From a virus, in IMG/VR virus record IMGVR_UViG_3300022926_001171, positions 1-45,426 of that record: 45,426 nucleotides of DNA; one strand, 5' to 3'. Shown piece by piece: positions 3,735 to 23,539 of the stretch. How positions within the stretch are numbered: the stretch's first letter is position 1; the number at the start of each line of letters is the position of its first letter. A program made the position numbers and the translations under genes. The notes under the pieces were generated by a model, which did not search any database, was not told where the DNA came from, and saw nothing but the letters and a program-made list of their open reading frames with translations.

Positions 3735-3814
3735 ATCAACAACTTATATGCTTATATTACTATCTGTAGGTTCACTTGTCAAGCATTAAAAATGCTTTAA
3801 TAATCAATGAGTTA
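3735..3814. repeat. ATCAAnnACTTA motif, locus A (2 copies)
   Basis: Two copies on the plus strand: 3735-3746 (ATCAACAACTTA) and 3803-3814 (ATCAATGAGTTA, one mismatch). They bracket the distal promoter. The same 12-bp motif recurs three times at 21002-21070 and three times at 23473-23539, always in an intergenic region upstream of a strong early promoter. Likely operator sites; the binding protein is unknown. Confidence 0.7.
3754..3782 (-). promoter_or_regulatory. Second sigma-70-like promoter (distal), 17-bp spacer
   Basis: TGCTTGACA with -35 at 3782-3777 and TAATAT at 3759-3754, 17 bp apart, about 90 bases upstream of the proximal promoter. The -35 overlaps a small hairpin (AAGCATTTTTAATGCTT). 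The -10 box is weaker than that of the proximal promoter. One copy of the ATCAAnnACTTA motif lies between the two promoters and one lies upstream. Confidence 0.6.
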
Positions 3815-3854
3815 GGTAAGCCCTACAAGGGTCTGTAAGGGGCTGTGCTGACTA

Positions 3855-3877
3855 GGGTACTCTGGGTATTAGTACCC
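3855..3877 (-). terminator. Possible terminator hairpin after virion gene
   Basis: GGGTACT (3855-3861) and AGTACCC (3871-3877) form a 7-bp stem that overlaps the end of the virion protein gene. No clear T-run follows on the minus strand, so intrinsic termination is doubtful. A second weak inverted repeat (AGCCC..GGGCT) lies just beyond. Confidence 0.3.
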
Positions 3878-4633
3878 TTCGGACCACTGATTAAACTCGT
3901 TTTCTTTGACTAAAACAAGGTTAAATGTGCCAGTGATAACCGCCGCACCAGTACCAGCAGTAACTCTTAGGTCAACATCAGTCTTCTCCGCGAGTGTGAC
4001 TGGGACACCAAAGATATATTCATACTGACCGCCATATGTTGCGCCCTTGTGCATTGTTCTGAATACACCATTTGGTTCTCGCATGAGCAATCTAGATTTG
4101 ATAGGAGAGTTAGCACTACCAGCGAATTCATAATGCATCAATAGCCCTATATATCCCGCTGGAACAGTGTAGACACCCATAAGTGTCTGCCCCTCACCCG
4201 CACTAATCTGAGCGATTTTAATGCCAGAAGAGGTACCGTAATGTGCTGAAATATCTCCTACTTCTTGCTGTGAAGAAGTGTTGTACATTCTAAACAATCT
4301 AATATAAGTGTTTTGAGATGCTACAGCGGTTGTTGTTGGGTCAGTAGCGTCAAGGGTGACTGTCTCTGATTGTACATTGAAGTCTGCATCAAGACCCTGA
4401 ATAAAGACTGTAATGCCCGCATCATCTGCATCATCTGATTTGAGATGTACATTTGCGGCACCGAGATCCCATGTAGTAGCCCACGGATATAAAGTAGAAC
4501 CGTCCCAAACAGTTTCTTCTACGCCATTTGCCGGAGAATTGTTTGCGGCAAATTTGTGGATGTGAAGAGCATTGCGGAGTTTACCTCTCGCAAGTTGTAC
4601 TCTCCAATCATCACCGAATAAGAATGTGCTCAT
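3869..4633 (-). CDS. Virion structural protein (marine phage family)
   Basis: A 254-residue, beta-rich, Thr/Ala/Gly-rich protein. The N-terminal pattern (RVQLARGKLRNALHIHKFA, VWDGSTLYPWATTW) and VFIQGLDADFNVQSETVTL are familiar from virion proteins of cyanophages and pelagiphages, where the protein is found by proteomics as a structural component. The fold is probably jelly-roll-like and the exact position in the particle is not known. It is co-transcribed with the upstream EF-hand membrane protein (adjacent, no gap) from the late box at 4990, as expected for a late gene. Confidence 0.75.
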   Translation of the reverse strand: MSTFLFGDDWRVQLARGKLRNALHIHKFAANNSPANGVEETVWDGSTLYPWATTWDLGAANVHLKSDDADDAGITVFIQGLDADFNVQSETVTLDATDPTTTAVASQNTYIRLFRMYNTSSQQEVGDISAHYGTSSGIKIAQISAGEGQTLMGVYTVPAGYIGLLMHYEFAGSANSPIKSRLLMREPNGVFRTMHKGATYGGQYEYIFGVPVTLAEKTDVDLRVTAGTGAAVITGTFNLVLVKENEFNQWSEGY

Positions 4634-4951
4634 TTAGTCTTTTTTCTCTAAAGCGCTTTTGCCGTAAAATGCGGCGACTATAGCAGCGACTGAAACAAAA
4701 TAGGTTGGCGCCATATCACCCAAAACCGACGCGCCTGACTCGAGGCCAAAGAATGTAGATGCAACTACAGCGAACGGATATAACAACATACCGTAAAGTG
4801 CGAACCAGGCCATATTGCGCTGGGCGTCTCGCATTGCGTCCTCATCCTCCAAACGCTTGCGCTTGAATTCGAGGTACATTGCTTTTTCTTCATCATCTAC
4901 AATGCCGTCGCCATTTACGTCAGCATCGTGGAATTTCTTATCATCTGCCAT
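4634..4951 (-). CDS. EF-hand membrane protein with two TM segments
   Basis: A 105-residue protein. Residues 11-22 form a canonical 12-residue EF-hand loop (Asp11, Asn13, Asp15, Gly16, Asp19, Glu22) that would bind calcium. Residues about 23-45 are a charged helix. Two hydrophobic segments follow, about 48-70 and 82-98, and the protein ends in a lysine tail. The size, two TM helices and late promoter fit a holin-like or envelope-associated protein, but an EF-hand holin is not an established class. Similar proteins occur in marine T4-like phages. Topology and calcium binding are inferred. Confidence 0.75.
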   Translation of the reverse strand: MADDKKFHDADVNGDGIVDDEEKAMYLEFKRKRLEDEDAMRDAQRNMAWFALYGMLLYPFAVVASTFFGLESGASVLGDMAPTYFVSVAAIVAAFYGKSALEKKD

Positions 4952-4989
4952 GAGAATCCCCTATATTATATTTGTTATGGGTATCTTGT

Positions 4990-4997
4990 TATTTATA
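4990..4997 (-). promoter_or_regulatory. Late promoter box TATAAATA
   Basis: Exact T4 late consensus 39 bases upstream of the ATG at 4951, just past the helicase stop. It drives the EF-hand protein and the virion protein as a late two-gene unit. Confidence 0.8.
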
Positions 4998-5001
4998 AAG
5001 T

Positions 5002-6387
5002 TTAAAATTTAAAACCCTCAAAGCTACTTATTTTCTTGCCAAACGCTGAATTATCAAATACAGGAGTATCATCATTACCTGCATCTTGTAATCCTTCCTG
5101 AGGATCACCCTCTACATCAAACAGTTTCATTCTTGATCTGTCTACACCCAACATAAACCTTTTGTTCCTAGTGGGGTCCGAATATCTATTCTTCAACTGT
5201 TTAACCATAACTTGACCTAACTTTTCTATTTCCTCTGTGCTGATGAGCGCAAACATCAAGTCTGCTGTAGCAGGAAGGCCAAATGATTCTGAGGTATCAG
5301 TCAATTCAACATCACTACTATTGTATCCACTCCTTGTAGTCTGTGTAGCAGTTACAAGAGGAACATCATGTTCAACTGCTAGTCCTCTAAGTTCTTCTGC
5401 AATGGACTTGATGATTGTGTAGGAGTTTGCTGAGGAACCAGCACGGAACCTACTGCTACTACATATGTTAAGGTAGTCAATATATATAATATCAGGTACA
5501 AAATTTCTTTTAAGTTTGATTTCGTTGAGTAGGGCTTTGAAGTGTCCCGCGTGTGCTGAGGCCGTCGGGTATTCTTTGACGATAAGCCTGCCTTGGATTT
5601 TTTCATTTATCTTTTGTATCCTATCTTCAAACATTTGCTTTGATAGATCTTTTAACTGACCTATAGGCAAATTCATTAGATTGGCATCAATCCTTTCTGC
5701 TATTCTTTCTTCAGACATCTCAAGTGTAATATATAAAACATTTTTACCCTGTGAAATGTTATTAGCTGCAAGATGACACATGAAAAGAGATTTACCAACA
5801 CCTGTTCCTGCAAGACATACATTCAGAGTTTTATTAGCAAGTCCGCCTTCTGTAATCTCATTGAGCATTGCTAAGTCAAAAGGAATTTTTTCTTCTAACC
5901 TATGATAAAACTCATAACGCTGTATTGCGTTTTCAATATAGTCATGTCCTACGTTATTATCAAATCCTACTTGTAATGCTTTTGATAACATATCAGGCAA
6001 AGCGTCAGGACCTCTCTCCTTATCTCTGCCGTCAATAACCTGAATTCCATCCATTATAGCATTGTAGATTGCTTTATCCTTACAATACTTCTCAGTTTCA
6101 TCAAGTAACCACTCGTAATCTATCGTTTGCTCATTCTCTTGTTTCAGCCATTCACTTAGAGCGGGTAGTTCACCTTCTGATACTGTTCTATCTTCTTCAA
6201 TAGAAATAGCAAGTGCTTGTTTTGTAGGAGACTTGTTATATTTATCAGCGTGCTGTTGAATTTTTCTCAACAGTGTTCTGTGTTCACCTGAAAAGTATTC
6301 TGTTTTTAGAAAAGGAATAACTTTTCTAAAATAATTATCATCAGTAAGAAGGGTACTTAAAATTATATTTTCCAACCTGTCTTGCAT
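5002..6387 (-). CDS. gp41: Replicative DNA helicase, T4 gp41 family
   Basis: A 461-residue DnaB-family hexameric helicase that unwinds the lagging-strand template and partners the phage primase. The N-terminal helical domain is followed by the RecA-like motor: Walker A AGTGVGKS (193-200), the NVLYITLEMSEERIAERIDAN segment, Walker B IIYIDY (300-305), and the GLPATADLMFALI arginine/sensor region. Alignment with T4 gp41 is clear by eye over the whole length (RLIVKEYPT..A..F..LLNEIKLKRNFVP). The ATG at 6387 overlaps the upstream kinase by 47 bases. T4 gp41 is 475 residues, so this copy is full length. It transcribes right up to the late promoter of the next unit. Confidence 0.97.
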   Translation of the reverse strand: MQDRLENIILSTLLTDDNYFRKVIPFLKTEYFSGEHRTLLRKIQQHADKYNKSPTKQALAISIEEDRTVSEGELPALSEWLKQENEQTIDYEWLLDETEKYCKDKAIYNAIMDGIQVIDGRDKERGPDALPDMLSKALQVGFDNNVGHDYIENAIQRYEFYHRLEEKIPFDLAMLNEITEGGLANKTLNVCLAGTGVGKSLFMCHLAANNISQGKNVLYITLEMSEERIAERIDANLMNLPIGQLKDLSKQMFEDRIQKINEKIQGRLIVKEYPTASAHAGHFKALLNEIKLKRNFVPDIIYIDYLNICSSSRFRAGSSANSYTIIKSIAEELRGLAVEHDVPLVTATQTTRSGYNSSDVELTDTSESFGLPATADLMFALISTEEIEKLGQVMVKQLKNRYSDPTRNKRFMLGVDRSRMKLFDVEGDPQEGLQDAGNDDTPVFDNSAFGKKISSFEGFKF

Positions 6388-6793
6388 TTCTTATCCTTTT
6401 TCTAATAATATGAATTGAATTTTCTTGTAGATTTTCTCTAATAGTTAAATCAGCACTTGTTGGTTTCACAAACATTTTATTAGTATTATTATAACGACTT
6501 ATGTCTATAGTGTCAAGGAATATAGTGTAGTCCGGATCAAATATCTTACGGGTCTCATGTAAAGGACAAACAAAGTCTGCTATAGCTATTTTACCAAATA
6601 CTGCTTCTGTATACGCAAGACCACGCATACGCATGGCCTGTCTTAGACGGGAATCATAATCAAAGTCCCAATCTTGTACTGCCTCTCTCACAAAGTCTGC
6701 ATTGAGATGTACAAAATCTTCTTGTCCCTCACAAAGTTTTTCTGACAACCAAGTTTTACCCGAACCGGGCAAACCACACACCAACACTATCAT
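6341..6793 (-). CDS. P-loop kinase (adenylylsulfate kinase-like)
   Basis: A 150-residue P-loop kinase. GLPGSGKT (7-14) is the Walker A, and HLNADFVREAVQDWDF (29-44) resembles the CysC/APS-kinase lid start. FVCPLHETRKIF and TIFLDTI match phage proteins annotated as adenylylsulfate kinase-like in marine T4-like phages. The ATG at 6793 follows the desaturase stop directly; the longer in-frame start at 6901 lies inside the desaturase gene and is rejected. No sulfate-assimilation gene is nearby, so the true substrate may be a nucleotide or a polynucleotide end. Confidence 0.75.
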   Translation of the reverse strand: MIVLVCGLPGSGKTWLSEKLCEGQEDFVHLNADFVREAVQDWDFDYDSRLRQAMRMRGLAYTEAVFGKIAIADFVCPLHETRKIFDPDYTIFLDTIDISRYNNTNKMFVKPTSADLTIRENLQENSIHIIRKRIRNARQVGKYNFKYPSY

Positions 6794-6797
6794 AAAT

Positions 6798-7496
6798 TTA
6801 ATCTGTTCGTATAAGTTTAATAATCCAACCACTAATATCTTTTGTCGGATGACAGGATGGATTGCCAGGATCTTTATGATGATTACCGTGCCAGCCTTCA
6901 CCGAAAGTCAACCAACCTAACCATTCATCATTATGAGCATATCCATTTCGATGGGAATATGATATTATCATACCTATAGCCAATCTAGACAAACCGGCTG
7001 GGGCTAACCAAGCGTAAACGACAGAAAAAGGATCTATCAACAGTAGTATTACAAGCCACAAAAATGTTAGTTTCCAATAATGTTTATGTTCTATAACTAC
7101 AGGTTTGTTCCTAACGAGATCTCTAACATACTTCATATCCATTTCATACAGTGTATGAAAAAACTGAGTTCTCAGATAACCTTTATGTACAGGAGAATGT
7201 GGATCCTTTTCTGTGTCAGAAAACCTATGATGTTCACGGTGCATTGCAACCCAGGCTACTGCCGAACCTGCTAAATTGATATGTCCAAAAAATAAAAGTA
7301 TTAGTTCTGTTATTTTTGAGCATTTAAATGATCTGTGAGTAAGGTATCTGTGATAACATATTGTGCTACCCAAGCTGAACATGAGAAAATACATAAGTAA
7401 AAGTATCAACCATTCGTTTAGCGAACCGTACACTATCATAGGTATCATTGACAAGTATGCGACCATTTGTATCGCTAATAGATGGTATTTTTTCAT
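6798..7496 (-). CDS. Fatty acid desaturase
   Basis: A 232-residue integral membrane di-iron desaturase. All three histidine boxes are present: HRYLTH (49-54), HREHH (86-90) and HGNHH (203-207). Hydrophobic segments flank them at about 8-25, 29-47, 65-83, 143-163 and 168-180. The family introduces a cis double bond into acyl chains and is close to acyl-CoA/acyl-lipid delta-9 desaturases. It is short but keeps the core. The gene starts immediately after the upstream zinc-ribbon gene (TAAATG). As a phage auxiliary gene it could alter host membrane fluidity during infection; that role is inference. Confidence 0.92.
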   Translation of the reverse strand: MKKYHLLAIQMVAYLSMIPMIVYGSLNEWLILLLMYFLMFSLGSTICYHRYLTHRSFKCSKITELILLFFGHINLAGSAVAWVAMHREHHRFSDTEKDPHSPVHKGYLRTQFFHTLYEMDMKYVRDLVRNKPVVIEHKHYWKLTFLWLVILLLIDPFSVVYAWLAPAGLSRLAIGMIISYSHRNGYAHNDEWLGWLTFGEGWHGNHHKDPGNPSCHPTKDISGWIIKLIRTD

Positions 7497-7694
7497 TTAA
7501 TCAATCCACTCTTTGGCTTTTTCACCATATATATTTTCGATACAGTTTTCACAGATAAACAAATCCTCGTTTTCTGTGTGAAAACAGATGGCTGCGTCAC
7601 CCTGCCAAATAGTTATTTGACAGCGATCACATACTCCTTCAGGCTTCTTGGATTTGCCCGTAAGCTTCTTCGATATCTTGTTCAGTAACTTCAT
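7497..7694 (-). CDS. Small zinc-ribbon-like protein
   Basis: A 65-residue protein with CDRC (Cys22, Cys25) and CENC (Cys48, Cys51), a likely four-cysteine zinc site, preceded by a lysine-rich N-terminus (MKLLNKISKKLTGKSKK). The ATG at 7694 is used; an upstream in-frame GTG at 7697 is possible. It overlaps the end of uvsX by 56 bases, so translation is probably coupled. Function unknown; a DNA- or RNA-binding adaptor is plausible from the basic tail and zinc ribbon. Confidence 0.7.
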   Translation of the reverse strand: MKLLNKISKKLTGKSKKPEGVCDRCQITIWQGDAAICFHTENEDLFICENCIENIYGEKAKEWID

Positions 7695-8721
7695 CACGCA
7701 TTATCCCGTCAACGCTTGAAATAGCGTATCGTTTGTTTATCCATGCCAAGAAACTTTCGTCTTTTAGAATAGGCAACCAAAACTCTTTGTTATAAGTATC
7801 CTTAATACGATATTTCTTTTCTTCCACTTCGCCTGTTGCTACATCAACCTTTGAATACCAACCATTGCTAGGTTTGACTACATGACCTGATGCTTGTGCC
7901 ATGTCAAGGAGACCTGACCATTTGCTGATACCACCTTCAAACGAAACCTCAACAGGAATCTTAGACTTCTCACGTACAAAGCGAGACTTCTCAACATTGA
8001 TAATAAAGTTATAACCCATCAGTTCAGTGCCTTGTTTGTCCTGCTGACGACCAATGATATAGATGTTGTCTGCTGAGTAGTAAATACCTGTACCGCCTGA
8101 AAGAATGTCTTTAGGGAACAAACCAATCTCTTTGTATGTGTGATTCACTGCAACCATTGGAATGTCTTTCAGTGTCAAGTGAGGAGTAACCATACGGAAC
8201 AATGACTTCAACTGTTTTGCTCGAGACATATCTGCTACTGACTTACCATCAAGTGCATCATCAACCTCTTTCTTAGACGCCAAGTTACCAACTGAATCAA
8301 TGATAATCATAACATGGTCACCACGTTCAATGCTGTTTAGCTGTGACATTGAATCATGCTTCAACTGTTCTACGTCTGTGAGAGGAGTATGAACCACTCG
8401 ATCTTTGTCAATACCGAAAGTGTCAAAGTAAGACTGAGGAGTACCAAACTCTGAATCATAGAACAGGATAACAGCATCATCATACTTGTCCAGATATGCT
8501 TTTGCCAACAACAATGAAAATGCTGTTTTGAAATGCTTTGACGGACCTGCGAATACTGTCAGTCCAGGTGTTAGACCACCGTCTAGCCTGCCACTCAGTG
8601 CTACGTTCAATGCAGGTACTGAGGTTTGAATCAAGTCTTTCATTCCGAAAAATTTTGAATCAGTTAGAACAGATGTATCTTTGATAGTGCTGTTCTTTTT
8701 TAGTTTATCAATTAAACTCAT
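7639..8721 (-). CDS. uvsX: RecA-like recombinase UvsX
   Basis: A 360-residue strand-exchange protein that coats ssDNA in phage recombination-dependent replication. Walker A is GPSKHFKT (59-66), the same atypical P-loop as T4 UvsX, and Walker B is IIID (139-142). The ATG at 8721 is fixed by GGAG seven bases upstream and by the ATGA overlap with the upstream stop; an in-frame codon at 8733 is less likely. Its partners are in the window: UvsY (40211-40654), UvsW (38733-40214) and gp46/gp47. Confidence 0.97.
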   Translation of the reverse strand: MSLIDKLKKNSTIKDTSVLTDSKFFGMKDLIQTSVPALNVALSGRLDGGLTPGLTVFAGPSKHFKTAFSLLLAKAYLDKYDDAVILFYDSEFGTPQSYFDTFGIDKDRVVHTPLTDVEQLKHDSMSQLNSIERGDHVMIIIDSVGNLASKKEVDDALDGKSVADMSRAKQLKSLFRMVTPHLTLKDIPMVAVNHTYKEIGLFPKDILSGGTGIYYSADNIYIIGRQQDKQGTELMGYNFIINVEKSRFVREKSKIPVEVSFEGGISKWSGLLDMAQASGHVVKPSNGWYSKVDVATGEVEEKKYRIKDTYNKEFWLPILKDESFLAWINKRYAISSVDGIMRDEVTEQDIEEAYGQIQEA

Positions 8722-9287
8722 ATATATCTCCACTTAATATTTTCATATTCATTTATAATGAAATTTCTTTCTATAGTAAATCTTTCTTTACCGGGTTCAT
8801 GGTCTCTCCCGGCATACATATGCGCGTCATCACCAAATCCTGCTAAAAGTATTTCATTGTAACCTTCTTGTGCTGCCTTCCACATTGCTAAAGAACCAGA
8901 ACTAAACCTTCTAGGTATTTCACTCATTGTAACATTTTCAACACAATCATTTTCTTCTAGATATGTATAAAAAATATCGTTTTTCCACCCAGAACAAACA
9001 ACACCGTGTTCTGTAAAATCATTTTTTACTACATTTAAACCTTCTACAATGTCTAAAGGTATAGTAGAAGGCACAGGTGTCCAATCTAAAAATATACAAC
9101 GGTTATTTAACGCATATTTGTCTACATAGACATCGTGCTGTACATATACATCTGTAGCGACCAAAACATCTATATGGATAGTTTCTCTATAGATATAATT
9201 ACAACCCCAGACAACACAATCATCTGGAATTTCTATACCTCTTCTGCTTTCACCATTGCCTAATATGATGGCTCGTTTATACCCCAA
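8718..9287 (-). CDS. Hypothetical protein, MptE-like N-terminus, TTG start
   Basis: A 189-residue protein with AIILGNGESRRG near the N-terminus, the 'GNGxS' turn seen in MptE-like/DUF115 and related Rossmann-type proteins that handle nucleotides or glycans. The C-terminal half (SSGSLAMWKAAQEGYNEILLAGFG) suggests a second alpha/beta unit. There is no ATG near the N-terminus. A perfect AAGGAG lies six bases before a TTG at 9287, so TTG is the likely start. It sits between UDP-glucose dehydrogenase and UvsX. A role in glycan assembly is possible but only inferred from context. Confidence 0.65.
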   Translation of the reverse strand: MGYKRAIILGNGESRRGIEIPDDCVVWGCNYIYRETIHIDVLVATDVYVQHDVYVDKYALNNRCIFLDWTPVPSTIPLDIVEGLNVVKNDFTEHGVVCSGWKNDIFYTYLEENDCVENVTMSEIPRRFSSGSLAMWKAAQEGYNEILLAGFGDDAHMYAGRDHEPGKERFTIERNFIINEYENIKWRYI

Positions 9288-10015
9288 CGTATTCTCCTTG
9301 TTGTATTATCATACAAAGCCTGTTTAAATATACTATCAGTATAACATAATTTGCTCATGTGTGTCAAGTCTTTAGGTAAACATTTGCCACCAAACCCAGG
9401 TTTACCATCTGGTCCTGGTACACTCCAGTGTGAATATCCCAAAGCAGGATCCTCTTTTAACATACACTCTATTGTATTGTAGTCCATCTTATGAGTTTCA
9501 CAAATATCCTTGAATTCATTTGCAACCGCCACTTTCATAGCAAGAACAGTGTTCCTTGCTAGCTTATACATCATTGCCTCTTTCGGACCCAAATACCAAC
9601 AACGCTTATTTGGTAATAGTCTCTGTAACTTATCTGTAAGTTTATAGTCACTTGTTATAATAGGCAGAATGGGATCGTCAACATCTTCTTTCCAATGTTT
9701 TTCTCTTAGGAACTCAGGCATCATAATGGCATTAGGAAATGAATCTACTTGATCGGGACCAATAGTGCTACGAATAACAATTTGTCCTCGCCATTTCCAT
9801 TGCTCATAGGCATCTGTTAAAATGGAAATATCAAGTTTACCATCTTCTCCTGTAGGTGTAGGGACACATAAGAAAATATAATCAAACATATCCTCGTCAC
9901 AGAATCTCGTGCTACCTTTCACAGTGTCATGGATATGAATTTCAGCTTTTGTTTTTCTAAACAAATACTCTGTGGCTGTACCTACAAACCCGTGTCCAAC
10001 AATTAATATTTTCAT
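9260..10015 (-). CDS. UDP-glucose 6-dehydrogenase-like, truncated
   Basis: A 251-residue NAD-dependent nucleotide-sugar dehydrogenase. GHGFVG (7-12) is the Rossmann loop, VPTP (51-54) and STIGP (83-87) are family motifs, and the Lys/Asn helix (YKLARNT, 150-156) precedes GFGGKC (207-212), where Cys212 is the catalytic thiol. Bacterial UGDH enzymes run to about 390-430 residues; this one ends soon after the catalytic cysteine and lacks the C-terminal UDP-binding domain, so sugar binding must differ or be supplied by another subunit. The ATG at 10015 overlaps the polymerase stop as ATGA. Confidence 0.85.
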   Translation of the reverse strand: MKILIVGHGFVGTATEYLFRKTKAEIHIHDTVKGSTRFCDEDMFDYIFLCVPTPTGEDGKLDISILTDAYEQWKWRGQIVIRSTIGPDQVDSFPNAIMMPEFLREKHWKEDVDDPILPIITSDYKLTDKLQRLLPNKRCWYLGPKEAMMYKLARNTVLAMKVAVANEFKDICETHKMDYNTIECMLKEDPALGYSHWSVPGPDGKPGFGGKCLPKDLTHMSKLCYTDSIFKQALYDNTTRRIRWGINEPSY

Positions 10016-12504
10016 CCGAAAAAATCCTCTAAAGTAGATTTAGGCTCTGTACTCCAACTGAGCGTGTTTACAATAGTATTCATGGGTTCTAAAAATGCTT
10101 TCTCAAACATTGTTTTGTAATCTACGTATTTGTGTATATCAAATTCAGGGGGAAGAACTGTATTGAAGGATATAACATTCTCTCGCAATATATTAGGTTC
10201 TTTAAGATAAACAAATTTTATCTTGTCACCTTCCTGTATCAATTCATATCGGTGACCTAAATCTAACTTATCCACATACCAATTAAATAACAAACTACCC
10301 CTAACGTGCATCGGAGTACCTTTACTATATATTTCAGTAAAATTTTTATACTTTGACATATTGTTACAACTTCTAGGAAAAGCTATTGTCTCAGGATTCA
10401 TATCAAAAAAATCTTTCCGAGTATTTTCAATAAAACTGTGTAGTTCCTTTTCGGTGCCTGTGAGACATATACGTACAGCTTCTTTCAAACTGTCTCTCAC
10501 CGGTGCTGGTGTAGAGGAGCGAACAATCTCAAGTCCCATCACCTTTAGATCAGGTGTAGTATATCTCACACCTTCGTTATCCCAGACATTCATAGCATAT
10601 CTTTTCTTAGCAACCCAAAGCGCCTTGTCAGCAATTGCTTCACGTTTGAAAAATATCTTTTCCTCAAAGGCATTTGTGTATTCTGCGAGTTTAGTCATTG
10701 CCTTCGAAATACAAGGCTCAATGGCACCCGAACCGACTTTATCTAAAATAGATATTAACTTGTCTTTTGGTTTATCCGAGTAAAACTTGTCAACCAAGTC
10801 CTTCAAAGTAATATAGCAGGAGTCAGTGTCAGTATAGAAACTATACATTTTACCTTCAGTTTTTAAAGTTTCATTCAAAAACTCATCCAATGCCGTGGAA
10901 GTCTTCCTGATGATATACTGCCCGGTTAGTGTTATTCCTTCTGCTATACGGTCATCATAGTATCTGAAGTATTCATTAGCCATCGCACCATATAGTGAGT
11001 TAAGTTGAATCTTACGTGCCATCTGAAAGTTATTGTACTTAGCAATTAAGTTTTTGTATTTCGGATCCTTTGTCTTCTCGTAATCCTGCTTAGCCTCGAT
11101 CATCAGTTTCTTGTATCGCTGCCTGTCATCAAAAAACTTCTGAACAATGTTAGGGAAGTGACCTTGCTTACTACGTGTAAATGTCTGACCATTAGCAGCT
11201 ACAGCATCATCAGTGTCAAACTTATACTTCTCAGCTAACATACCATCAACGTCCACATCATACGTACCACCAGGCACCAATGTCTCAGGGCTCATGTTGT
11301 ACTGCATGATGATAGAAGGATACAGTGAAGTGGCATCAAACGAAGCAACCCATTCATATGCACCTGGAACCGGCTCTTGTACATAGGCGCCTGCAATTTG
11401 CCTTCCTTTTTTACCCTCATGTTGATGAATTACAATATTCATATCTCGTAGTTGGTTGTACAATAAACAGTCCCAAGTCTTTACAGGACTGAATACATCC
11501 TCAAAGTTCATCTTGGCGTCATAGGTCATTGTCAGACAGAGTTCGATAAGTTTCATTTTCTCTTCCAACTCATCTACTAGCTTTGTATCAATGATGTTGT
11601 ACTCTACAAACAAGTTCCAATCTTTCGTATAAAAATCCCGGAAACTATCATGTGGGTTTTCCAACTTCTTGTGTCCTAGTTCGACTTCTGCTATGTAATC
11701 TAGTTTGTAGGATTCCCGGGTAACATATGTAAACTTTTTGTATATATCCAAATAATCTAATTGAGCAACACCTGTAATATCAAACGTGGTGTATGTTCTA
11801 CCACCCATAGTTAGGTCTTTTTTGTGTACCAGTTTGAAAGGACTAAATGCTTTCTTACCAACATCACCTAGAAGTCTATCTGTTCTTGAAACCAAATAAG
11901 CAATGTCAAATAGTTTAGAGTTCCATCCTGTAATAACGTCAGGACAATTTACAATCCACCACTCCATAAAACGTGCAAGTAATTGTTTCTCGCTTGCACA
12001 CTCTCGGTAATCTATATTTAGGTGTGCTGTATGTTCCGTCGGTGTAAAAGGACCAACACCAAATGTTGTGATTTGTTTTGTTGTATTGTGCATCATAGTA
12101 ATAAGAAGCACTTCCTCAATAGGGTTACCAACAGCAGGAAAACCATTCTCTGCTGTTGTTTCAATGTCTATTGAGTACAAACCAATTTTAGATATATCCC
12201 AGTCAATATCACCGGGATAGTTTTCTGAGATATATTGATAGCCCCAATGTGTCTGGCCGAAGATAGGAAAGTTAGATACTTCTTTGTATTGTTCTACAAA
12301 CTCAGATGCTTCTTTATTAGAAGCAAATTCTACTGGAGAAACCTTTTCTCCAAACATAGTTTTATATTGTGTTGGTTTGTCTGACCTAACAAACAGTGTG
12401 GGTGAGAAGGATACCTTTTTAGATATCCTTTTACCCTGTGGGGTAACACCACGTAACAATATTTTATCACCGTAGTGCCTAGCGTATGTATAAAAATTTG
12501 ACAT
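10012..12504 (-). CDS. gp43: Family B DNA polymerase, T4 gp43
   Basis: An 830-residue replicative polymerase with proofreading exonuclease. Exo I is SIDIETT (111-117), Exo II lies in NSKLFDIAYL and Exo III in YNIIDTKLV. The polymerase motifs are SFDATSLYPSI (388-398), LNSLYGA (501-507) and YTDTDS (557-562) with both catalytic aspartates. The C-terminus LEDFFG is a clamp-binding tail like that used by T4 gp43 for gp45. The ATG at 12504 has GGAG upstream; an in-frame codon at 12519 is less likely. A perfect sigma-70 promoter lies directly upstream. T4 gp43 is 898 residues, so this is a normal marine-type length. Confidence 0.98.
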   Translation of the reverse strand: MSNFYTYARHYGDKILLRGVTPQGKRISKKVSFSPTLFVRSDKPTQYKTMFGEKVSPVEFASNKEASEFVEQYKEVSNFPIFGQTHWGYQYISENYPGDIDWDISKIGLYSIDIETTAENGFPAVGNPIEEVLLITMMHNTTKQITTFGVGPFTPTEHTAHLNIDYRECASEKQLLARFMEWWIVNCPDVITGWNSKLFDIAYLVSRTDRLLGDVGKKAFSPFKLVHKKDLTMGGRTYTTFDITGVAQLDYLDIYKKFTYVTRESYKLDYIAEVELGHKKLENPHDSFRDFYTKDWNLFVEYNIIDTKLVDELEEKMKLIELCLTMTYDAKMNFEDVFSPVKTWDCLLYNQLRDMNIVIHQHEGKKGRQIAGAYVQEPVPGAYEWVASFDATSLYPSIIMQYNMSPETLVPGGTYDVDVDGMLAEKYKFDTDDAVAANGQTFTRSKQGHFPNIVQKFFDDRQRYKKLMIEAKQDYEKTKDPKYKNLIAKYNNFQMARKIQLNSLYGAMANEYFRYYDDRIAEGITLTGQYIIRKTSTALDEFLNETLKTEGKMYSFYTDTDSCYITLKDLVDKFYSDKPKDKLISILDKVGSGAIEPCISKAMTKLAEYTNAFEEKIFFKREAIADKALWVAKKRYAMNVWDNEGVRYTTPDLKVMGLEIVRSSTPAPVRDSLKEAVRICLTGTEKELHSFIENTRKDFFDMNPETIAFPRSCNNMSKYKNFTEIYSKGTPMHVRGSLLFNWYVDKLDLGHRYELIQEGDKIKFVYLKEPNILRENVISFNTVLPPEFDIHKYVDYKTMFEKAFLEPMNTIVNTLSWSTEPKSTLEDFFG

Positions 12505-15837: not shown

Positions 15838-15863
15838 TCACAACTCCATAATATAATATAGTT

Positions 15864-16194: not shown

Positions 16195-16196
16195 AG

Positions 16197-16868: not shown

Positions 16869-16895
16869 AATATAAATCCTTCAAGTTAAAATAAT

Positions 16896-16924
16896 AGTAT
16901 ATAATAATTTAAAACTAAAGTCAA
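16896..16924 (-). promoter_or_regulatory. Sigma-70-like promoter for gp45
   Basis: TTGACT (16924-16919) and TATACT (16901-16896), 17 bp apart. The stop codon TGA of the upstream gene is inside the -35 box. Confidence 0.82.
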
Positions 16925-17214
16925 GTGTTTTCTAAAACCTCAGTAGTAAAGCTAAGATTTTTCTCAGCAACATTTTCAACTGCTTCAGAGGTAGTGTAGT
17001 ATGTGTCCATAACTGCCTTGTGTGCGTTCCAAGCAGCCTCACTAGGTGCAGTATATGTAGTAATGATGCTTGTACCATCATTAGACATAACTACTTCACC
17101 CGTAATGCCATTATCAACTAATGAATTTGCTCTCGCAACTTCAACATCTTCTGGTAATGCTCCCCATTCTGCGTTGGGGTCTCTATTGAGAGTAATTTTT
17201 ATAACGTAAGCCAT
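16921..17214 (-). CDS. Conserved hypothetical phage protein
   Basis: A 97-residue protein starting MAYVIKITLNRDPNAEWG. It shows a short beta pattern with NDGTSIITTYTAPSEAAWNAHKAVMDTY in the middle and an acidic tail. I recall similar proteins in T4-like marine phages without assigned role. A TATAAATA box is 36 bases upstream and its stop is embedded in the gp45 promoter. The late box suggests a virion or late-stage role, but this is inference. Confidence 0.65.
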   Translation of the reverse strand: MAYVIKITLNRDPNAEWGALPEDVEVARANSLVDNGITGEVVMSNDGTSIITTYTAPSEAAWNAHKAVMDTYYTTSEAVENVAEKNLSFTTEVLENT

Positions 17215-17248
17215 TTGTTTTCTCCGTAAATAAGAAGGTTATTGTCTC

Positions 17249-17524
17249 TTATTTATAATCCTGGTCATGTTCATTCAAAGCTAAAAGCGCATAATGTAAG
17301 ATTTTTAGTAGGTCTTTTCTATTGTGACCGTCTTTCTTACCGTATCGCTGAGTATACTTGAGGACATTGCCGAGGAAGAATCCCATGCCGTGTCCACAGT
17401 CCATGATAAACTCCGATGACTGAAACCTACTACGGCTATAATGCTCACCGTACGTTTCGTCTATATAAGCCTGGAGCTCTGCAATTAGAGCTCCTTCGTT
17501 AAATTTGTAATCTATTTTTGCCAT
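17249..17524 (-). CDS. DUF3310-like small protein
   Basis: A 91-residue protein starting MAKIDYKFNEGALIAELQAY. The second half (FIMDCGHGMGFFLGNVLKYTQRYGKKDGHNRKDLLKILHYAL, in part) matches the DUF3310 pattern of small phage proteins, where 'GNVxKYxxRYxxK' precedes 'DLLK'. A nucleotide-pyrophosphohydrolase-like helix bundle has been proposed for such proteins; no catalytic acid pairs are obvious here. The ATG at 17524 overlaps the ParB-like gene stop (TGATGG). It is in one operon with the ParB-like gene. Confidence 0.75.
   Translation of the reverse strand: MAKIDYKFNEGALIAELQAYIDETYGEHYSRSRFQSSEFIMDCGHGMGFFLGNVLKYTQRYGKKDGHNRKDLLKILHYALLALNEHDQDYK
17250..17257 (-). promoter_or_regulatory. Late promoter box TATAAATA
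   Basis: Exact late consensus overlapping the stop of the DUF3310-like gene, 36 bases before the ATG at 17214, with a CGGAGA ribosome site between. Confidence 0.7.
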
Positions 17525-18795
17525 CAAAATACCTCATGCACTGTCTTATATTTTTTGTTTTGTAAGGACATTCTACCCATTGGAACAATAGAATATGTAT
17601 CTTCTCGCATAACATATTCAACCAATGCTGTTATGGGTAGTACACTCATTCCAGGGCTTCCTGCTTTTCTCCATAGAGGTTTGCCGTCAAATGTCTTACT
17701 ATTACGATCAAGATAACAAATCACTATAGTTCCTTCTGTCTGTTCTTCAGTCCAAACAAAACCAAGTGAGTAACCATATTTCTCGCTGGTTGTGGTGAAC
17801 CCATCAACCATTGTAGTTTTTGTTTCAAGAGCATTGACCTGTTTGTCATCTTTGAAAAAAAGTATATCCATACCTTTCATTGCTTTCCCAGGTCTTGCCT
17901 CATAAACATCTTGAGATTCATTAAAATATTTTATAAAGTTAGTGGTTAATACACCGTGCATATAACCGCCTTGAGTATTTTTATCCAAGTGATACCAATG
18001 TGGTTGTTCGTCTTGTTCTTTTTTCAAGGCCTTAACAACATCTTTAGTTAAAGATTCAAAAGGTATATTTGCAAATAACTTTTCAAGGGTTTCGTCTCGA
18101 TCAAACTCAGCTTCAATTTTTAAATTTGTTTGCATTTTTTTAAATTGAGTTTCGATTCTTTTTTCTTTTCCTGTTAGCAACTCCTGAAAAAGCCTAGGAT
18201 CTCCTGGATATTCTACCTTTTTAAACTCTCCGCCGTCACGTAAAACTAGTGCCTTCTTATAAGTAGGAACAGAGGAGCCTGCCCTAGTAATTATAGATTT
18301 TAGTTCTCCGGGTGTCGGTTGTTTGCCATAATAAGTTACAAATGATTTAACGTCTGCTTCAGCAGCCATAACAGAGGCAATAGGATGGTGTGTTGTACTT
18401 TTATTATCTACTCTCATAGAAGCACAAACATCAGGGTGGTCAAAATCAATAGCACCATCTGCGCCCATGTCTTCTATCATACGTTTGGTCCTAGGCTTGC
18501 GTTGTACGGGAACCATGGTCCATCCCAAAGCTAAACAAGCCATAATTCTGTTCCAACCGGCATCTAGAAAATTGCCTTCGGAATCTCCTTCCCATACAGT
18601 CGGTGCTCGATGCAGACCTTCTGTTTCAATAAGAAATTTTAAATCCTCACGACTTTGAATAACCTCTTCGTCCACTGCTGTCTCACGAAAAATATTGTTA
18701 TTCGGGTTGGCAATAATACTGTCAATGGGTACCCAGCTAACCTCTCTTGGGCCATCATAAGTATGAATTTCAGAATGTAATTTTATAGCTTCCAT
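17524..18795 (-). CDS. ParB-like domain protein with possible PD-(D/E)XK C-terminus
   Basis: A 423-residue protein. Residues about 18-100 look like the ParB/Srx N-terminal domain (SWVPIDSIIANPNNN, NFLDAGWNRIMACLALGWTMVPV), with DAGWNR (78-83) in place of the usual GERR or DGHHR. The middle (about 130-260) is charged and helical. In the C-terminal part, MDILFF at 309-314 followed by ALETKT (322-327) gives D310-x13-ExK, the spacing of a PD-(D/E)XK nuclease core. It has a strong early promoter of its own. No ParA is nearby. The role could be DNA cleavage or host takeover, but this is inferred. Confidence 0.7.
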   Translation of the reverse strand: MEAIKLHSEIHTYDGPREVSWVPIDSIIANPNNNIFRETAVDEEVIQSREDLKFLIETEGLHRAPTVWEGDSEGNFLDAGWNRIMACLALGWTMVPVQRKPRTKRMIEDMGADGAIDFDHPDVCASMRVDNKSTTHHPIASVMAAEADVKSFVTYYGKQPTPGELKSIITRAGSSVPTYKKALVLRDGGEFKKVEYPGDPRLFQELLTGKEKRIETQFKKMQTNLKIEAEFDRDETLEKLFANIPFESLTKDVVKALKKEQDEQPHWYHLDKNTQGGYMHGVLTTNFIKYFNESQDVYEARPGKAMKGMDILFFKDDKQVNALETKTTMVDGFTTTSEKYGYSLGFVWTEEQTEGTIVICYLDRNSKTFDGKPLWRKAGSPGMSVLPITALVEYVMREDTYSIVPMGRMSLQNKKYKTVHEVF

Positions 18796-18826
18796 TTTTA
18801 GTCCTCACTATTTGAATGTACTTACC

Positions 18827-18854
18827 ATTATACACGATTTGATCCGTATGTCAA
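18827..18854 (-). promoter_or_regulatory. Sigma-70-like promoter for ParB-like operon
   Basis: TGCTTGACA (-35 at 18854-18849) and TATAAT (18832-18827), 16 bp apart. The leader ends with GTGAGGAC, as in the promoters at 3667 and 23426, but has no ATGAAAAAACG block. Confidence 0.9.
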
Positions 18855-18862
18855 GCATTATT

Positions 18863-19690
18863 TCAAAGAATAATATTTTCCAAGAACGGAATAACTGTTT
18901 TACCTTTGGCCAGTTTCCTACCATTCTCTGTCTCGTCTCCTATTTTGCGGTCAGGCCAGTAATGGTGTTGTGAAAACAAAGGAGCTTTCAGGTTAAAGTC
19001 TGCTTGTGAAACAACCCATTGCCACCTGTCTTGACAAGTTTGCATATATTCTCTATTACAAATGAGTTCGGGCGGTAACCATTTTTTAGCCCAATCCCAA
19101 TGTTCATATGGACTAGGGTGTTCATCATACTGTAGTATTTCAATTTCTTTTCCCTTCCTATGATGTTCTAGAGGAAACTTATCCAGGTAATCACTGTAAG
19201 GCAACCAGCCGTCATAAAGAGAGGGTTCAAAAAGCATATCATCTGCTGTTGGTGCTGGTACTTCCTTTAGGAATTCTTTTGCATTAATGGTTAAAAAAGG
19301 TTTGTGCATAGAGTTCATATAAAATTTACAGCCAATATTTTTTAAATAACCACCCATTGCTTTCACCAGAGACAAATCTCTAACAGCGTATGAAACAGGA
19401 TCAAAGGTATCTGATATAGGACTCGCATTGTGAAGCCATTTTCTTTCTACTGAATCAAAGCAGTCCGTTCTATACCAAGCCGACCACAAAATAATTACAA
19501 TATCATCTGAATTAATTTTTTCTATTTCGCTTACTTTCAAAACAGAGGAAAAAATGTAGAGGTTACCTGCGCCTGGGGATCCGTAGTTAAATGAACCATT
19601 TGGCCTACCCAATGCCTCGTAAGCAAAGTCAGCATAAGTAGGCCAAATGTATTCTGTCAGACTACACCCAAAAGTAAACAGGCGTCCCAA
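18863..19690 (-). CDS. SGNH hydrolase-like protein, TTG start
   Basis: A 275-residue protein with SGNH/GDSL-type signatures: FGCSLT (7-12, nucleophile serine block), NYGSPGAGN (35-43, block II-like), VIILWSAW in the next strand, and DEHPSP (189-194), the block V Asp-x-x-His-Pro. It probably acts as an esterase or acyltransferase-like hydrolase. It begins directly after the AAA+ stop. The only start that keeps the FGCSLT strand is TTG at 19690, with GGAG six bases upstream. The substrate is unknown. It is co-transcribed with the AAA+ gene. Confidence 0.75.
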   Translation of the reverse strand: MGRLFTFGCSLTEYIWPTYADFAYEALGRPNGSFNYGSPGAGNLYIFSSVLKVSEIEKINSDDIVIILWSAWYRTDCFDSVERKWLHNASPISDTFDPVSYAVRDLSLVKAMGGYLKNIGCKFYMNSMHKPFLTINAKEFLKEVPAPTADDMLFEPSLYDGWLPYSDYLDKFPLEHHRKGKEIEILQYDEHPSPYEHWDWAKKWLPPELICNREYMQTCQDRWQWVVSQADFNLKAPLFSQHHYWPDRKIGDETENGRKLAKGKTVIPFLENIIL

Positions 19691-20869
19691 TTAAAACTCC
19701 ACCTCGTCTAGTGGAGTGTTCTCTACCTCAGGCTCCTGAGGGTTTGCAGGGTCAACCTTAGTGTACAAGTCAATAAATGCCGCCTTAGTATCAGCGTCAA
19801 AACGGTTGGTACACAAGGTGATTGCCTTAATCTTGTCCTTGAATACACCGTAAGCATTTACAATGTGCTCAAGCCTACGGGTGCTGACCAACTCGTCTAT
19901 AGCACCCTCGAAAAAGGTCTTACGAATCACCTCGGACCAAGTAACCAGATGAGTAGCGAATTCCTCATCTGTATAACCAGCCTTGCCCATCTTGTTAAGG
20001 ATGATGCGCTTCTCTACGGCTGCTGTAGGGTACTCCTGCTCAACGGTAATTGCAAAACGCTCCAGGAACGCTTCGTCCAACAGCTGAGCGCTGATGAATT
20101 TACCATCATCTGAACCACGACCTTTTGTATTCGCAGTCGCCACAATAGTAAACCCGTTGGCAGGAGCGACGGTCTCGCCAGTCTTCTTATTGAAGTACGC
20201 TTTACCTTCAAGGATGGCCTGGAGACACATCAACTTGTTGGATCCACGGTCTACTTCATCAAGGATCAGGACCGCGCCACGTTTCATGGCGGTGAGGACC
20301 GGTCCTTCTCTATAGACGACGTTACCATCAACTAGAGTATTGCCACCGATTAGATCGTCCTCGTCGGTCTCAATACTAATATTTACACGGATAGCCTCAC
20401 GCTTGAGCTGAGCGCAAACCTGCTCAACCATTGTGGTCTTACCGTTACCGGACAATCCGGATATAAAAAGTGGGTAGAACATACCACCCTGAAGGATAGT
20501 CTTGAGGTCCCTGTGAAAACCAAAGGGTACATAAGTATCGTCTTTGGATGGGACCAGGTTTTGAATATCCATTGCTAATTTGGCCATTGATACTACCTTA
20601 GACTCAGGAGCCTGTACAGGAGCTGGGGGAGGTGTAACGACCTGCAGCTTAGGTTGACGGACAGGAGCTGCTTTGATAGCTGCTGTGCCTGTGAACATCT
20701 CGGACATATCGTATACGCCGGATTCAACCTTGTACTGATCCTTGAGAATAAAGCCTGGGTGATTGATACCCATTGCTTTGGCCTCACGGATAATATCCTT
20801 ACGGGCTACGTGGTTGTTTCCGTCAGCGTATGAACGGAGGGTGTCAATAAGTGCGTTACGGTCAGTCAT
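19691..20869 (-). CDS. cobS-like: MoxR/CobS-like AAA+ ATPase
   Basis: A 392-residue AAA+ ATPase. Walker A is GLSGNGKTT (138-146), Walker B LILDEVD (201-207), and sensor-1 TIVATANTKG follows at about 238. The N-terminal 100 residues carry a helix-rich domain and a Pro-rich linker. MoxR/CobS-type ATPases remodel partner proteins together with a VWA protein; the next gene upstream (21136-23382) is such a partner. Phage copies are often labelled CobS, but no cobalamin genes are in this window, so a literal cobaltochelatase role is unlikely. Its own promoter and motif-rich region lie between the two genes. Confidence 0.9.
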   Translation of the reverse strand: MTDRNALIDTLRSYADGNNHVARKDIIREAKAMGINHPGFILKDQYKVESGVYDMSEMFTGTAAIKAAPVRQPKLQVVTPPPAPVQAPESKVVSMAKLAMDIQNLVPSKDDTYVPFGFHRDLKTILQGGMFYPLFISGLSGNGKTTMVEQVCAQLKREAIRVNISIETDEDDLIGGNTLVDGNVVYREGPVLTAMKRGAVLILDEVDRGSNKLMCLQAILEGKAYFNKKTGETVAPANGFTIVATANTKGRGSDDGKFISAQLLDEAFLERFAITVEQEYPTAAVEKRIILNKMGKAGYTDEEFATHLVTWSEVIRKTFFEGAIDELVSTRRLEHIVNAYGVFKDKIKAITLCTNRFDADTKAAFIDLYTKVDPANPQEPEVENTPLDEVEF

Positions 20870-20933
20870 AATATAAGCTCCTCACAAGCTATTAATAATA
20901 AATTTTAGTGCGTTTTTTCATTCTATAGTGCTT

Positions 20934-20961
20934 ATTATACACGTATTATAGAAAAAGTCAA
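20934..20961 (-). promoter_or_regulatory. Sigma-70-like promoter for AAA+ gene
   Basis: TGCTTGACT (-35 at 20961-20956) and TATAAT (20939-20934), 16 bp apart. The leader resembles those at 3667 and 23426 (AAGCACTATAGAATGAAAAAACG) but then runs on for about 40 bases before GTGAGGAGC, with the ATG at 20869. Confidence 0.88.
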
Positions 20962-21001
20962 GCATTATTTTCATTTATTTGAAATCTTTTTTCCGTTATA
21001 A

Positions 21002-21070
21002 ATCAAGCACTTACCACTGAACTAAGTTGTTGATTTCATTGAAGTTTTTTTACAGCAAATCAATGACTTA
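21002..21070. repeat. ATCAAnnACTTA motif, locus B (3 copies, one inverted)
   Basis: Plus-strand copies at 21002-21013 (ATCAAGCACTTA) and 21059-21070 (ATCAATGACTTA), and an inverted copy at 21023-21034 (TAAGTTGTTGAT). The first and the inverted copy form an inverted repeat with a 9-base spacer. All lie upstream of the AAA+ promoter. See the findings for the three-locus pattern. Confidence 0.75.
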
Positions 21071-21088
21071 CGAACCTACCGTGAAATC

Positions 21089-21131
21089 TGTAGCGAGAGT
21101 AGTATTCTCACTCGCTACATCTCACGTAGCG
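21089..21131 (-). other. Mutually exclusive hairpins downstream of VWA gene
   Basis: Just after the VWA gene stop, the RNA segment from 21111-21119 can pair with 21089-21097 (TGTAGCGAG/CTCGCTACA, 9 bp). Its 21113-21118 part can instead pair with 21126-21131 (CGCTAC/GTAGCG, 6 bp, 7-base loop). The two stems exclude each other. No T-run follows, so simple intrinsic termination is unlikely; an attenuator or RNA-processing site is possible. Confidence 0.45.
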
Positions 21132-21135
21132 CTAT

Positions 21136-23382
21136 CTATGCAATCTCTGGGACGAATTTCTGTACAAAGATGCGCTGCTGTGCCTTAGAGCCTGCAAACT
21201 TGCGGAACCCACGTAGTAAGTCACCCTTTTTAGTGGACTTGACCTCGAGCTCCTCGTCCTCAATGCTCAGCTTGCCGCCGTTCATAATGTAACGGACATC
21301 AAACCCTACCTTGTCACGGGCTTCAATGAGACCTGAGGGCTGCTGTGGCTTGAATATCTTTTCCCATTCCCAGTAGCCCATGTTAATGTCACCAACAGTA
21401 GCGTAATCCTTACAATCCTCGAGGGTGCGCTTAGTGAACCTGTCCAGTATATGATAGTTGATAACCTTAGAGCCTGTAATCTCCTTGTACATCTCAAGCA
21501 GAGTACAGGTCAATTCTACGTTATGATGCGCTCTGCCTTTAAGCATGGGGTACACTGCTGAACCATACTTGAAAACAGGCTCTTGTCTGTAACCAGGATT
21601 TTGAGGCCACATTTTTCCCTCGCTCTCCTTCCAGTATTCGGAGAAATCAGTAGCCTCACCGTCAGTCAGGACAATAGTATTAAGAATCTCAACACCAGTA
21701 CCCTTACGGAAACGCTTGGCAATCTCAATACCGATAACAATTGTTGCATTGAGAGGCGTGCCACCCATATCCAATGCACCGTTTTGATTTATCCAAACAG
21801 GTAACATACCGTTTGTGGTACGGTTATTGCGACCTGCCATACGATAATCGAATGATGATTTCCACAGTAGTAAATACTTGTATGCTTCCTCGAGCTGTGC
21901 CTTGCTGAAATCTGAAGTGAGCAGCTTGACAGTCTTAGCCTCTTCAATCACATATTCACCTACCTTAGACTCAGGTCGGGAAATATTGCCGCTCCAAGAA
22001 TTATTGCCAGTAGTAAAACCATACACCTCGAAAGGCACATTGATTTTACGTGCAAACATAGTTAGATTAATAAGCTGTGCAAGTGTATCACCCATATTAC
22101 GGAACATTGAACCTGACATATCGAGGTACATAATGAAACCGTGATTCTTGCCTTCGGGTATTGAAGTAACCTGCTTGAACAAGTCATCTGAAGTCTTGTA
22201 AGCCCACAGTCTATCCTCATTGAGATCGCCTGTCTTGGCAGTCTTAGCCTTAATGAATTGTGACGCTTTACGCTTCATCTCAAAAGAGGCAACCATCTGA
22301 TTAATTGTCTTGCTGTTCTGTGCAATGAAATCTTTGTACAGTTTTTCAGCGTGTGTCTTAGGGTCTACGTAATTGTTATGATGACCGGCCTCAACAAGGT
22401 CCCACCTGTAAACATCTTTAGGCTGTACAATATTATCCAACAAGCTTGGGCCTGTGGGTAAAGTAATGTATACTGATTCCTTAGACACCTCAGTGTCTAA
22501 CAGACTTTCCTCATTCTCACGGAATGCCTTGTCAGTAATTGAACCAACACCACCGTCATCTGCAAAGTCCTGAATAGCCTGAGGTGCTTCGTCCTCTGCC
22601 TCGTCCTCGATGTCACCGTCATCTGAATCTGAATCACCAGCAGCTTGAGAATCATCTGAGTCCTCGTCGGTCTCCTCACCACTGTTACCAGCAGCTGAAC
22701 CACCTTCATCAGTCTCATATTCGTCTGAATCTGACTGCTCCCAGTCTGACATATCGCCTTCCATGCTCATATCGCTGTCGCCTGACTGTGGGTCGAAGTC
22801 TTCCATCAACTGCTCAATATCATCCTCAGCAGTTTCCTTTGCCTTGCCGTGTAATTCACGGGCCAGTGCCTCAACCTCTTCCCAAGTCTGAGTATTCGCA
22901 CAACGGTCTACAAAGGACTGTTCTTCAGTAGTAAACTGTACATTGAGGAATGCACCTAACTTGAAGTATAGGTTGATACGGTCAATAAGAGGCAGCTTGT
23001 TTACGTCTACATCTTTGACACCGAAAAAGTCACGCTCGAATAATTCACGGTAACCTGCGTAAAAGCTACGGACAAGACCGGGATAACGTGATTTTACATT
23101 GCGCTCAATACGTGCGTCCTCGATAACATTGAGGAAGCCTTTAAGTGTACGATCCTCACAAACGGCATCGTGCCAGCCTTCTGCTGGGGTCTCATGTACG
23201 TGTCCGACCTCGTGACCGATAAGAAGGTCCTGCACACAAGTAGGCATATCTTTCCATTTAGGGATATACATTGTGCGAGACATTGGATCAAATGCTGCTG
23301 TAGGGAGGTCTGACTTAACTTCTACTGTAATATTTTCAGTAGACAATAGTTTAGCAAGTAATGATTTTTGTTGAATTTGCAT
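21136..23382 (-). CDS. CobT-like zincin plus VWA-domain protein
   Basis: A 748-residue protein with three parts. Residues 57-61 are HEVGH, a zincin-type zinc motif, followed by NVIEDARIE (85-93), which could give the third ligand. Residues about 185-280 are a long Asp/Glu/Ser-rich linker. Residues about 415-600 form a VWA domain with a complete MIDAS: DMSGSM (421-426), GGTPL (540-544) and VLTDGEATD (571-579). CobT/VWA proteins work with MoxR/CobS ATPases like the neighbour. A metalloprotease activity is possible but HExxH here is HEVGH within a hydrophobic helix and is unproven. It has its own early promoter. Confidence 0.85.
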   Translation of the reverse strand: MQIQQKSLLAKLLSTENITVEVKSDLPTAAFDPMSRTMYIPKWKDMPTCVQDLLIGHEVGHVHETPAEGWHDAVCEDRTLKGFLNVIEDARIERNVKSRYPGLVRSFYAGYRELFERDFFGVKDVDVNKLPLIDRINLYFKLGAFLNVQFTTEEQSFVDRCANTQTWEEVEALARELHGKAKETAEDDIEQLMEDFDPQSGDSDMSMEGDMSDWEQSDSDEYETDEGGSAAGNSGEETDEDSDDSQAAGDSDSDDGDIEDEAEDEAPQAIQDFADDGGVGSITDKAFRENEESLLDTEVSKESVYITLPTGPSLLDNIVQPKDVYRWDLVEAGHHNNYVDPKTHAEKLYKDFIAQNSKTINQMVASFEMKRKASQFIKAKTAKTGDLNEDRLWAYKTSDDLFKQVTSIPEGKNHGFIMYLDMSGSMFRNMGDTLAQLINLTMFARKINVPFEVYGFTTGNNSWSGNISRPESKVGEYVIEEAKTVKLLTSDFSKAQLEEAYKYLLLWKSSFDYRMAGRNNRTTNGMLPVWINQNGALDMGGTPLNATIVIGIEIAKRFRKGTGVEILNTIVLTDGEATDFSEYWKESEGKMWPQNPGYRQEPVFKYGSAVYPMLKGRAHHNVELTCTLLEMYKEITGSKVINYHILDRFTKRTLEDCKDYATVGDINMGYWEWEKIFKPQQPSGLIEARDKVGFDVRYIMNGGKLSIEDEELEVKSTKKGDLLRGFRKFAGSKAQQRIFVQKFVPEIA

Positions 23383-23395
23383 AATGATAGGGTCC

Positions 23396-23413
23396 TCACA
23401 ACCGTTTTTTCAT
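23396..23413 (-). CDS. Possible leader peptide uORF (MKKRL)
   Basis: Same five-codon sequence (ATG AAA AAA CGG TTG TGA) as at 3637-3654, again ending in the Shine-Dalgarno of the next gene. Only the start of this block is kept in the leader at 20880-20934, where the frame reads on for a few more codons. Confidence 0.25.
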   Translation of the reverse strand: MKKRL

Positions 23414-23425
23414 TTTATACTGCTT

Positions 23426-23453
23426 ATTATACAGCCTTTTTAGAAAAAGTCAA
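23426..23453 (-). promoter_or_regulatory. Sigma-70-like promoter for VWA gene
   Basis: TTGACT (23453-23448) and TATAAT (23431-23426), 16 bp apart. The 30-base leader that follows is almost identical to the one at 3626-3667. Confidence 0.88.
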
Positions 23454-23457
23454 GATA

Positions 23458-23539
23458 TAAAAGCCCTTACAAATCAATGACTTACGTTAAGTGCTTGATC
23501 TATAAGGGCTTTTAGTTTTCTAAGTAAATCAATAACTTA
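23458..23539. repeat. Nested inverted repeat and ATCAAnnACTTA motif, locus C (3 copies)
   Basis: A perfect 12-bp inverted repeat, TAAAAGCCCTTA (23458-23469) and TAAGGGCTTTTA (23503-23514), encloses a second one: ATCAATGACTTA (23473-23484) and TAAGTGCTTGAT (23488-23499) separated by three bases. A third motif copy, ATCAATAACTTA, lies at 23528-23539 and overlaps the stop codon of the secreted-protein gene. The structure sits immediately upstream of the VWA promoter. It could act as a terminator for the upstream gene, an operator or a cruciform site. Confidence 0.75.

Follow-up and report, generated by a model that had tools for sequence, protein, structure and literature searches.

Integration host factor (IHF) is a DNA-bending protein of bacteria, and Giladi et al. 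in 1998 (listed among the references of PMC1784095 and PMC2753651) are said to have described phage lambda PL as a promoter with an upstream IHF site. In E. coli, the IS5 element activates glpFK through an IHF site and a bend; an insertion of 10 bp, but not one of 5 bp, is tolerated (PMC2753651). E. coli IHF sites follow the consensus WATCAANNNNTTR, and their 5' part is A/T-rich (PMC7581858). Literature searches with the literal words of the motif described below found nothing relevant, and those on IHF with T4-like or early phage promoters found no direct precedent.

The window analysed here (the whole stretch of DNA, 45,426 bases) is a virus record with a T4-like replication and head gene set: DNA polymerase gp43, a DnaB-like helicase, UvsX, clamp loader, sliding clamp, an SbcCD-like pair (T4 gp46/47), a UvsW-like helicase and the major capsid protein Gp23. 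By polymerase, the closest named phages are cyanophages, at ~50% identity or less (~49% for the nearest). The window also encodes peptide deformylase-like (25591-26115) and HldE/cytidylyltransferase-like (1377-1847) proteins, possible auxiliary metabolic genes. An HTH protein encoded at 2704-2961 is Pfam HTH_39. Three further genes concern us:

3195 to 3626, minus strand: 143-aa protein of unassigned function; homologues in related phages are also preceded by the IHF-type element
19691 to 20869, minus strand: AAA+ ATPase, CobS-like (AAA_5; PHROG 249)
21136 to 23382, minus strand: VWA-type protein, labelled 'peptidase', partner of the AAA+ gene (PHROG 459)

The 12-letter motif ATCAAnnACTTA occurs in exact form 7 times in the whole window, compared with 0.24 expected from dinucleotide-preserving shuffles, and 0 of 100 such shuffles reached 7. 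The initial annotation had counted eight copies. Its coordinates and orientations are correct, but the copy at 3803 is one specified base off the motif (C to G) and makes an eighth only if one mismatch is allowed. Confinement of the copies to three intergenic regions, which together total 665 bases, was also borne out: a count across all 45,426 bases found no exact copy elsewhere, and the sole encroachment is that of the copy at 23528-23539, which overlaps a neighbouring ORF by the TAA of that ORF's stop codon (23537-23539). The seven exact copies are sites 1 and 3 to 8 below.

3735 to 3746, plus strand: site 1, ATCAACAACTTA, promoter-proximal, 40-bp gap to the -35 box at 3694
3803 to 3814, plus strand: site 2, ATCAATGAGTTA, one mismatch to the motif, full match to the IHF consensus
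21002 to 21013, plus strand: site 3, ATCAAGCACTTA, promoter-proximal, 40-bp gap to the -35 box at 20961
21023 to 21034, minus strand: site 4, ATCAACAACTTA, inverted, position kept in relatives L012 and L019
21059 to 21070, plus strand: site 5, ATCAATGACTTA, sharing an A/T tract with site 4
23473 to 23484, plus strand: site 6, ATCAATGACTTA, promoter-proximal, 19-bp gap to the -35 box at 23453
23488 to 23499, minus strand: site 7, ATCAAGCACTTA, inverted, with G rather than A/T at the W position
23528 to 23539, plus strand: site 8, ATCAATAACTTA, whose minus-strand TAA is the stop codon of the ORF at 23537-23872

Each copy is probably a site for host IHF, which would stimulate host-type sigma-70 promoters by bending the DNA upstream of them. 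This prediction is made from sequence, and it assumes that the phage's own host has IHF.

Each of the three regions contains a minus-strand, near-consensus sigma-70-type promoter whose spacer is 16 bp long. The -35 boxes start at 3694 (12/12 consensus matches), 20961 and 23453 (11/12 each). The leaders are very similar among the regions, and the near-identity of promoters and leaders before the 3626, 20869 and 23382 genes that the initial annotation described was confirmed as a likeness of sequence. At most, their sigma-70-like character hints that the three promoters may be early ones. A tandem promoter-like site lies between sites 1 and 2; site 2 is 20 bp from its -35 box, and the orthologous site in L150 also has a gap of 20.

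3667 to 3694, minus strand: promoter of the 3626 gene, TTGACA-16-TATAAT
3754 to 3782, minus strand: tandem upstream promoter-like site, TTGACA-17-TAATAT
20934 to 20961, minus strand: promoter of the AAA+ (CobS-like) gene, TTGACT-16-TATAAT
23426 to 23453, minus strand: promoter of the VWA gene, TTGACT-16-TATAAT

Other near-consensus sigma-70-like sites in the window had no exact IHF-type site within ~110 bp upstream. Two divergent near-consensus promoter-like sites lie at 38229-38300 (38257, minus; 38272, plus), and these are without the motif.

How closely do the copies resemble IHF sites? The motif ATCAAnnACTTA is the IHF consensus WATCAANNNNTTR with two of its four N positions restricted. 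Together with the neighbouring base, it fits WATCAANNNNTTR in 7/8 copies, the consensus being that of E. coli. That neighbouring W base, absent from the motif of the initial annotation, is A in 7/8 copies (the copy at 23488 has GATCAA) and is A/T in all unique promoter-linked sites. A run of A4+ or T4+ stands 7-22 bases 5' of ATCAA in 7/8 copies; such a run is found at 19% of window positions and at 31% in the same intergenic regions. In the E. coli IS5 work, the IHF site constructed ahead of glpFK, aatcaagcagtta (PMC2753651), differs from the copy at 21002 once, at an N position. The copies also resemble the IHF sites of lambda-type attP, which show WATCAANNNNTTR with an A/T-rich 5' side (PMC7581858). 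However, att sites serve recombination, whereas the window copies precede promoters and adjoin no tRNA.

Read on the gene strand, the promoter-proximal site invariably has the orientation TAAGTnnTTGAT. We examined its spacing in the window and in related phages, fixing only the IHF positions (YAANNNNTTGATW) and taking sites no more than 60 bp upstream of a promoter-like site. There were 43 unique YAANNNNTTGATW sites upstream of promoter-like sequences, while shuffled-letter patterns gave a mean of 2.5 and at most 9. Similarity clustering left 34 groups, in which the gap from TTGAT to the -35 box is mostly 19-21, 29-30 or 39-41 bp, that is, clustered at successive helical turns. The Rayleigh R was 0.67 at 10.5 bp (p ~5e-5), and 0 of 20,000 uniform-gap draws reached it; this null is a simple one, and phylogeny leaves the clustered sites less than fully independent. 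The best-fitting period of the gaps was 9.9. In the opposite orientation, the site had no such phasing.

A sigma-70 promoter with an upstream IHF-type site in fixed helical phase is the arrangement of a lambda PL-type promoter. The likeness to lambda PL lies in a site for host IHF, here a predicted one, ahead of a host-type phage promoter, with stimulation that would act via upstream DNA. What sets the locus apart from lambda PL is its T4-like phage, the sharing of the predicted site by several promoters, a gap that changes in helical steps and the extra inverted copies. At IS5/glpFK, activity depends on helical phase, which is the behaviour that the gap distribution suggests here; the difference is that the transposon end lies much further upstream (~-220).

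From these features we infer IHF as the protein, activation as its effect and the geometry of the bend. Host IHF would bind upstream of the three sigma-70 promoters and bend the DNA sharply, always on one helical face with respect to RNA polymerase. Upstream DNA would thereby be folded towards polymerase and the promoter stimulated, as IHF does at lambda PL. The extra inverted sites would provide further bends, or positions for the same upstream complex. IHF may alternatively repress these promoters.

Perhaps a different protein reads the element? The initial annotation proposed an operator for one regulator, with the HTH protein as a candidate. One regulator for a small set of promoters that includes the AAA+/VWA pair agrees with our results, the element being conserved in relatives, rare elsewhere and helically phased. 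A phage operator read by the HTH protein was not supported: the motif lacks symmetry and fits the IHF consensus, also at the W position that had not been listed. The motif ATCAANNACTTA has no dyad, and its promoter-proximal copies are single and in one orientation; this asymmetry rules against a dyad operator of a dimeric HTH phage repressor. A broader alternative is that some other sequence-specific regulator, of phage or host, reads TAAGTnnTTGAT including its GT and activates or represses the promoters. Within the central NNNN, two positions vary freely and the other two favour GT, with CT, CC, AC, AT and CA as exceptions. Positions 4-5 are free in the IHF consensus, yet ~2/3 or more of the phased phage sites have GT there; this counts against IHF, and the strong preference for GT (or CT) is what another reader would produce. 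Homologues of the HTH_39 protein do occur in several motif-bearing relatives. They also occur, however, in records without phased TAAGTnnTTGAT units, including Pelagibacter phage HTVC008M, and the HTH_39 protein is therefore a weak candidate. Most phage repressors, moreover, read dyads. Phased sites without GT occur in distant phages (TAACCCGTTGATA, TAAATTATTGATA, CAAACCCTTGATT), and those with a 19-20-bp gap have CC, AT or AC at positions 4-5; hence, the IHF positions are kept where GT is lost. The same word is also widespread beside bacterial tRNA genes, and a phage regulator would serve no purpose there. We consider a regulator other than IHF unlikely.

A phage-encoded HU/IHF protein was a further candidate. 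None of the 20 related records searched, of up to 222 kb, contained an HU/IHF-family gene; hence, the host would have to supply the protein.

The region upstream of the VWA gene contains an additional feature:

23458 to 23514, no strand assigned: inverted repeat with 27-nt arms and a 3-nt loop, enclosing sites 6 and 7

This repeat forms a terminator-like hairpin on both strands (folding z -8.7 and -6.0). Its outer arms are AAAAGCCCTTA/TAAGGGCTTTT, and its ends are T-rich. Its loop-proximal arms are the two convergent motif copies. The hairpin may terminate transcription from both sides, and a terminator may coexist with the IHF-type sites there. Could the inverted copies in general pair in RNA as terminator hairpins that shield the operons from one another, with the motif as a by-product? 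The very strong fold on both strands and its T-rich ends would fit, but the other two regions fold no better than shuffles (z -0.7 and -0.1), and the NN bases are non-complementary in both window pairs. Many relatives, furthermore, have a single site with no partner, and terminators would leave helical phasing and fixed orientation unexplained. We regard this as very improbable; the hairpin adds to the site pair in its region and does not replace the general explanation by IHF.

Conservation extends well beyond the window. The element before the AAA+ gene is present in most near-clade loci (L001-L026, 67-97% identity, some loci being incomplete). In L012 and L019 (71-76% identity), the three-site array before this gene keeps its offsets of 21 and 57 bases, and this spacing is retained while spacers and NN bases have changed. 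Before the VWA gene, the element reaches L128, L131 and L149, in which the VWA protein is ~30-33% identical over its length, and the element recurs before homologues of the 143-aa gene. The motif is thus present upstream of the same genes in related phages, as the operator proposal of the initial annotation implied. The preceding VWA gene in several relatives uses the motif's TAA as its stop codon, as the ORF at 23537 does in the window. One 162-kb record (G009) has three phased TAAGTnnTTGAT-promoter units, before the VWA gene, the homologue of the 143-aa gene and one further gene; its AAA+ gene is preceded by the variant TAACATGTTGAT.

In two loci (L341 and L342, from relatives G003 and G008), a different gene (~113 aa) is preceded by the module of tandem promoter and two sites found at window 3650-3815, as though such cassettes could pass from one gene to another. 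Are the copies then simply traces of a recent duplication of promoter cassettes, with no function of their own? The great similarity of promoters and leaders in the three regions could be read in this way, as could the displaced tandem module. The copies differ, however, in NN, orientation and flanks, and the sites outlast the divergence of their spacers, with gaps that shift in helical steps. We find such an origin extremely improbable as the whole explanation.

Toward more distant phages the element is lost from view. In two cyanophages, the upstream regions of the same two genes were read and the site was not found, and the whole genomes had no phased TAAGTnnTTGAT units; we count this absence in favour of IHF. 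Pelagibacter phage HTVC008M and several more distant records likewise had no phased TAAGTnnTTGAT-promoter units. The absence from HTVC008M and these distant records counts against IHF as the reader, with a weight that in the case of HTVC008M depends on whether its host has IHF. A fixed 19-bp pattern proved too strict to be informative in distant records.

A wider reading is that, in this clade of T4-like phages, IHF is the common switch of a regulon of 3-5 promoters (those of the AAA+/VWA pair, the 143-aa gene and others), with direct and inverted arrays kept in phase over deep divergence. We offer this tentatively, as somewhat doubtful. If it were true, IHF level or growth phase would set the timing of the AAA+/VWA machine, and T4-like phages outside the model hosts would tap a host nucleoid protein for specific promoters. 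A likely regulator would then be named for the phage AAA+/VWA pair, which is widespread but unexplained. The relatives, with gaps of ~20, 30 and 40 bp, amount to a natural helical-phasing experiment.

The word also has a bacterial counterpart. With one genome per bacterial species, the extended word TAAGTNNTTGATTTNATTRG occurred in >100 stretches; among the matches listed, most were from Pseudomonadota and none was named as Bacillota or Actinomycetota. In a form free at NNNN, 146 Cyanobacteriota genomes gave 21 matches compared with 8 for the reversed control, and GT was not favoured. Among 150 Burkholderiales genomes, the same form gave 50 matches and the reversed control 2; here, position 4 is often G or C, and pairs other than GT are numerous. 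A tRNA 3' end lies at exactly +17 in 31/81 TAAGTNNTTGATTTNATTRG sites among the matches listed. Integrative elements that target tRNA genes have attachment sites arranged in this way, at a fixed distance from a tRNA 3' end, and this architecture suggests that the tRNA-adjacent sites are IHF sites of presumed att regions. In many Pseudomonadota genomes (L217-L296, L344-L373), TAANNNNTTGATTTNATTRG stands at a fixed +17 from tRNA 3' ends, a simple marker of integrated elements.
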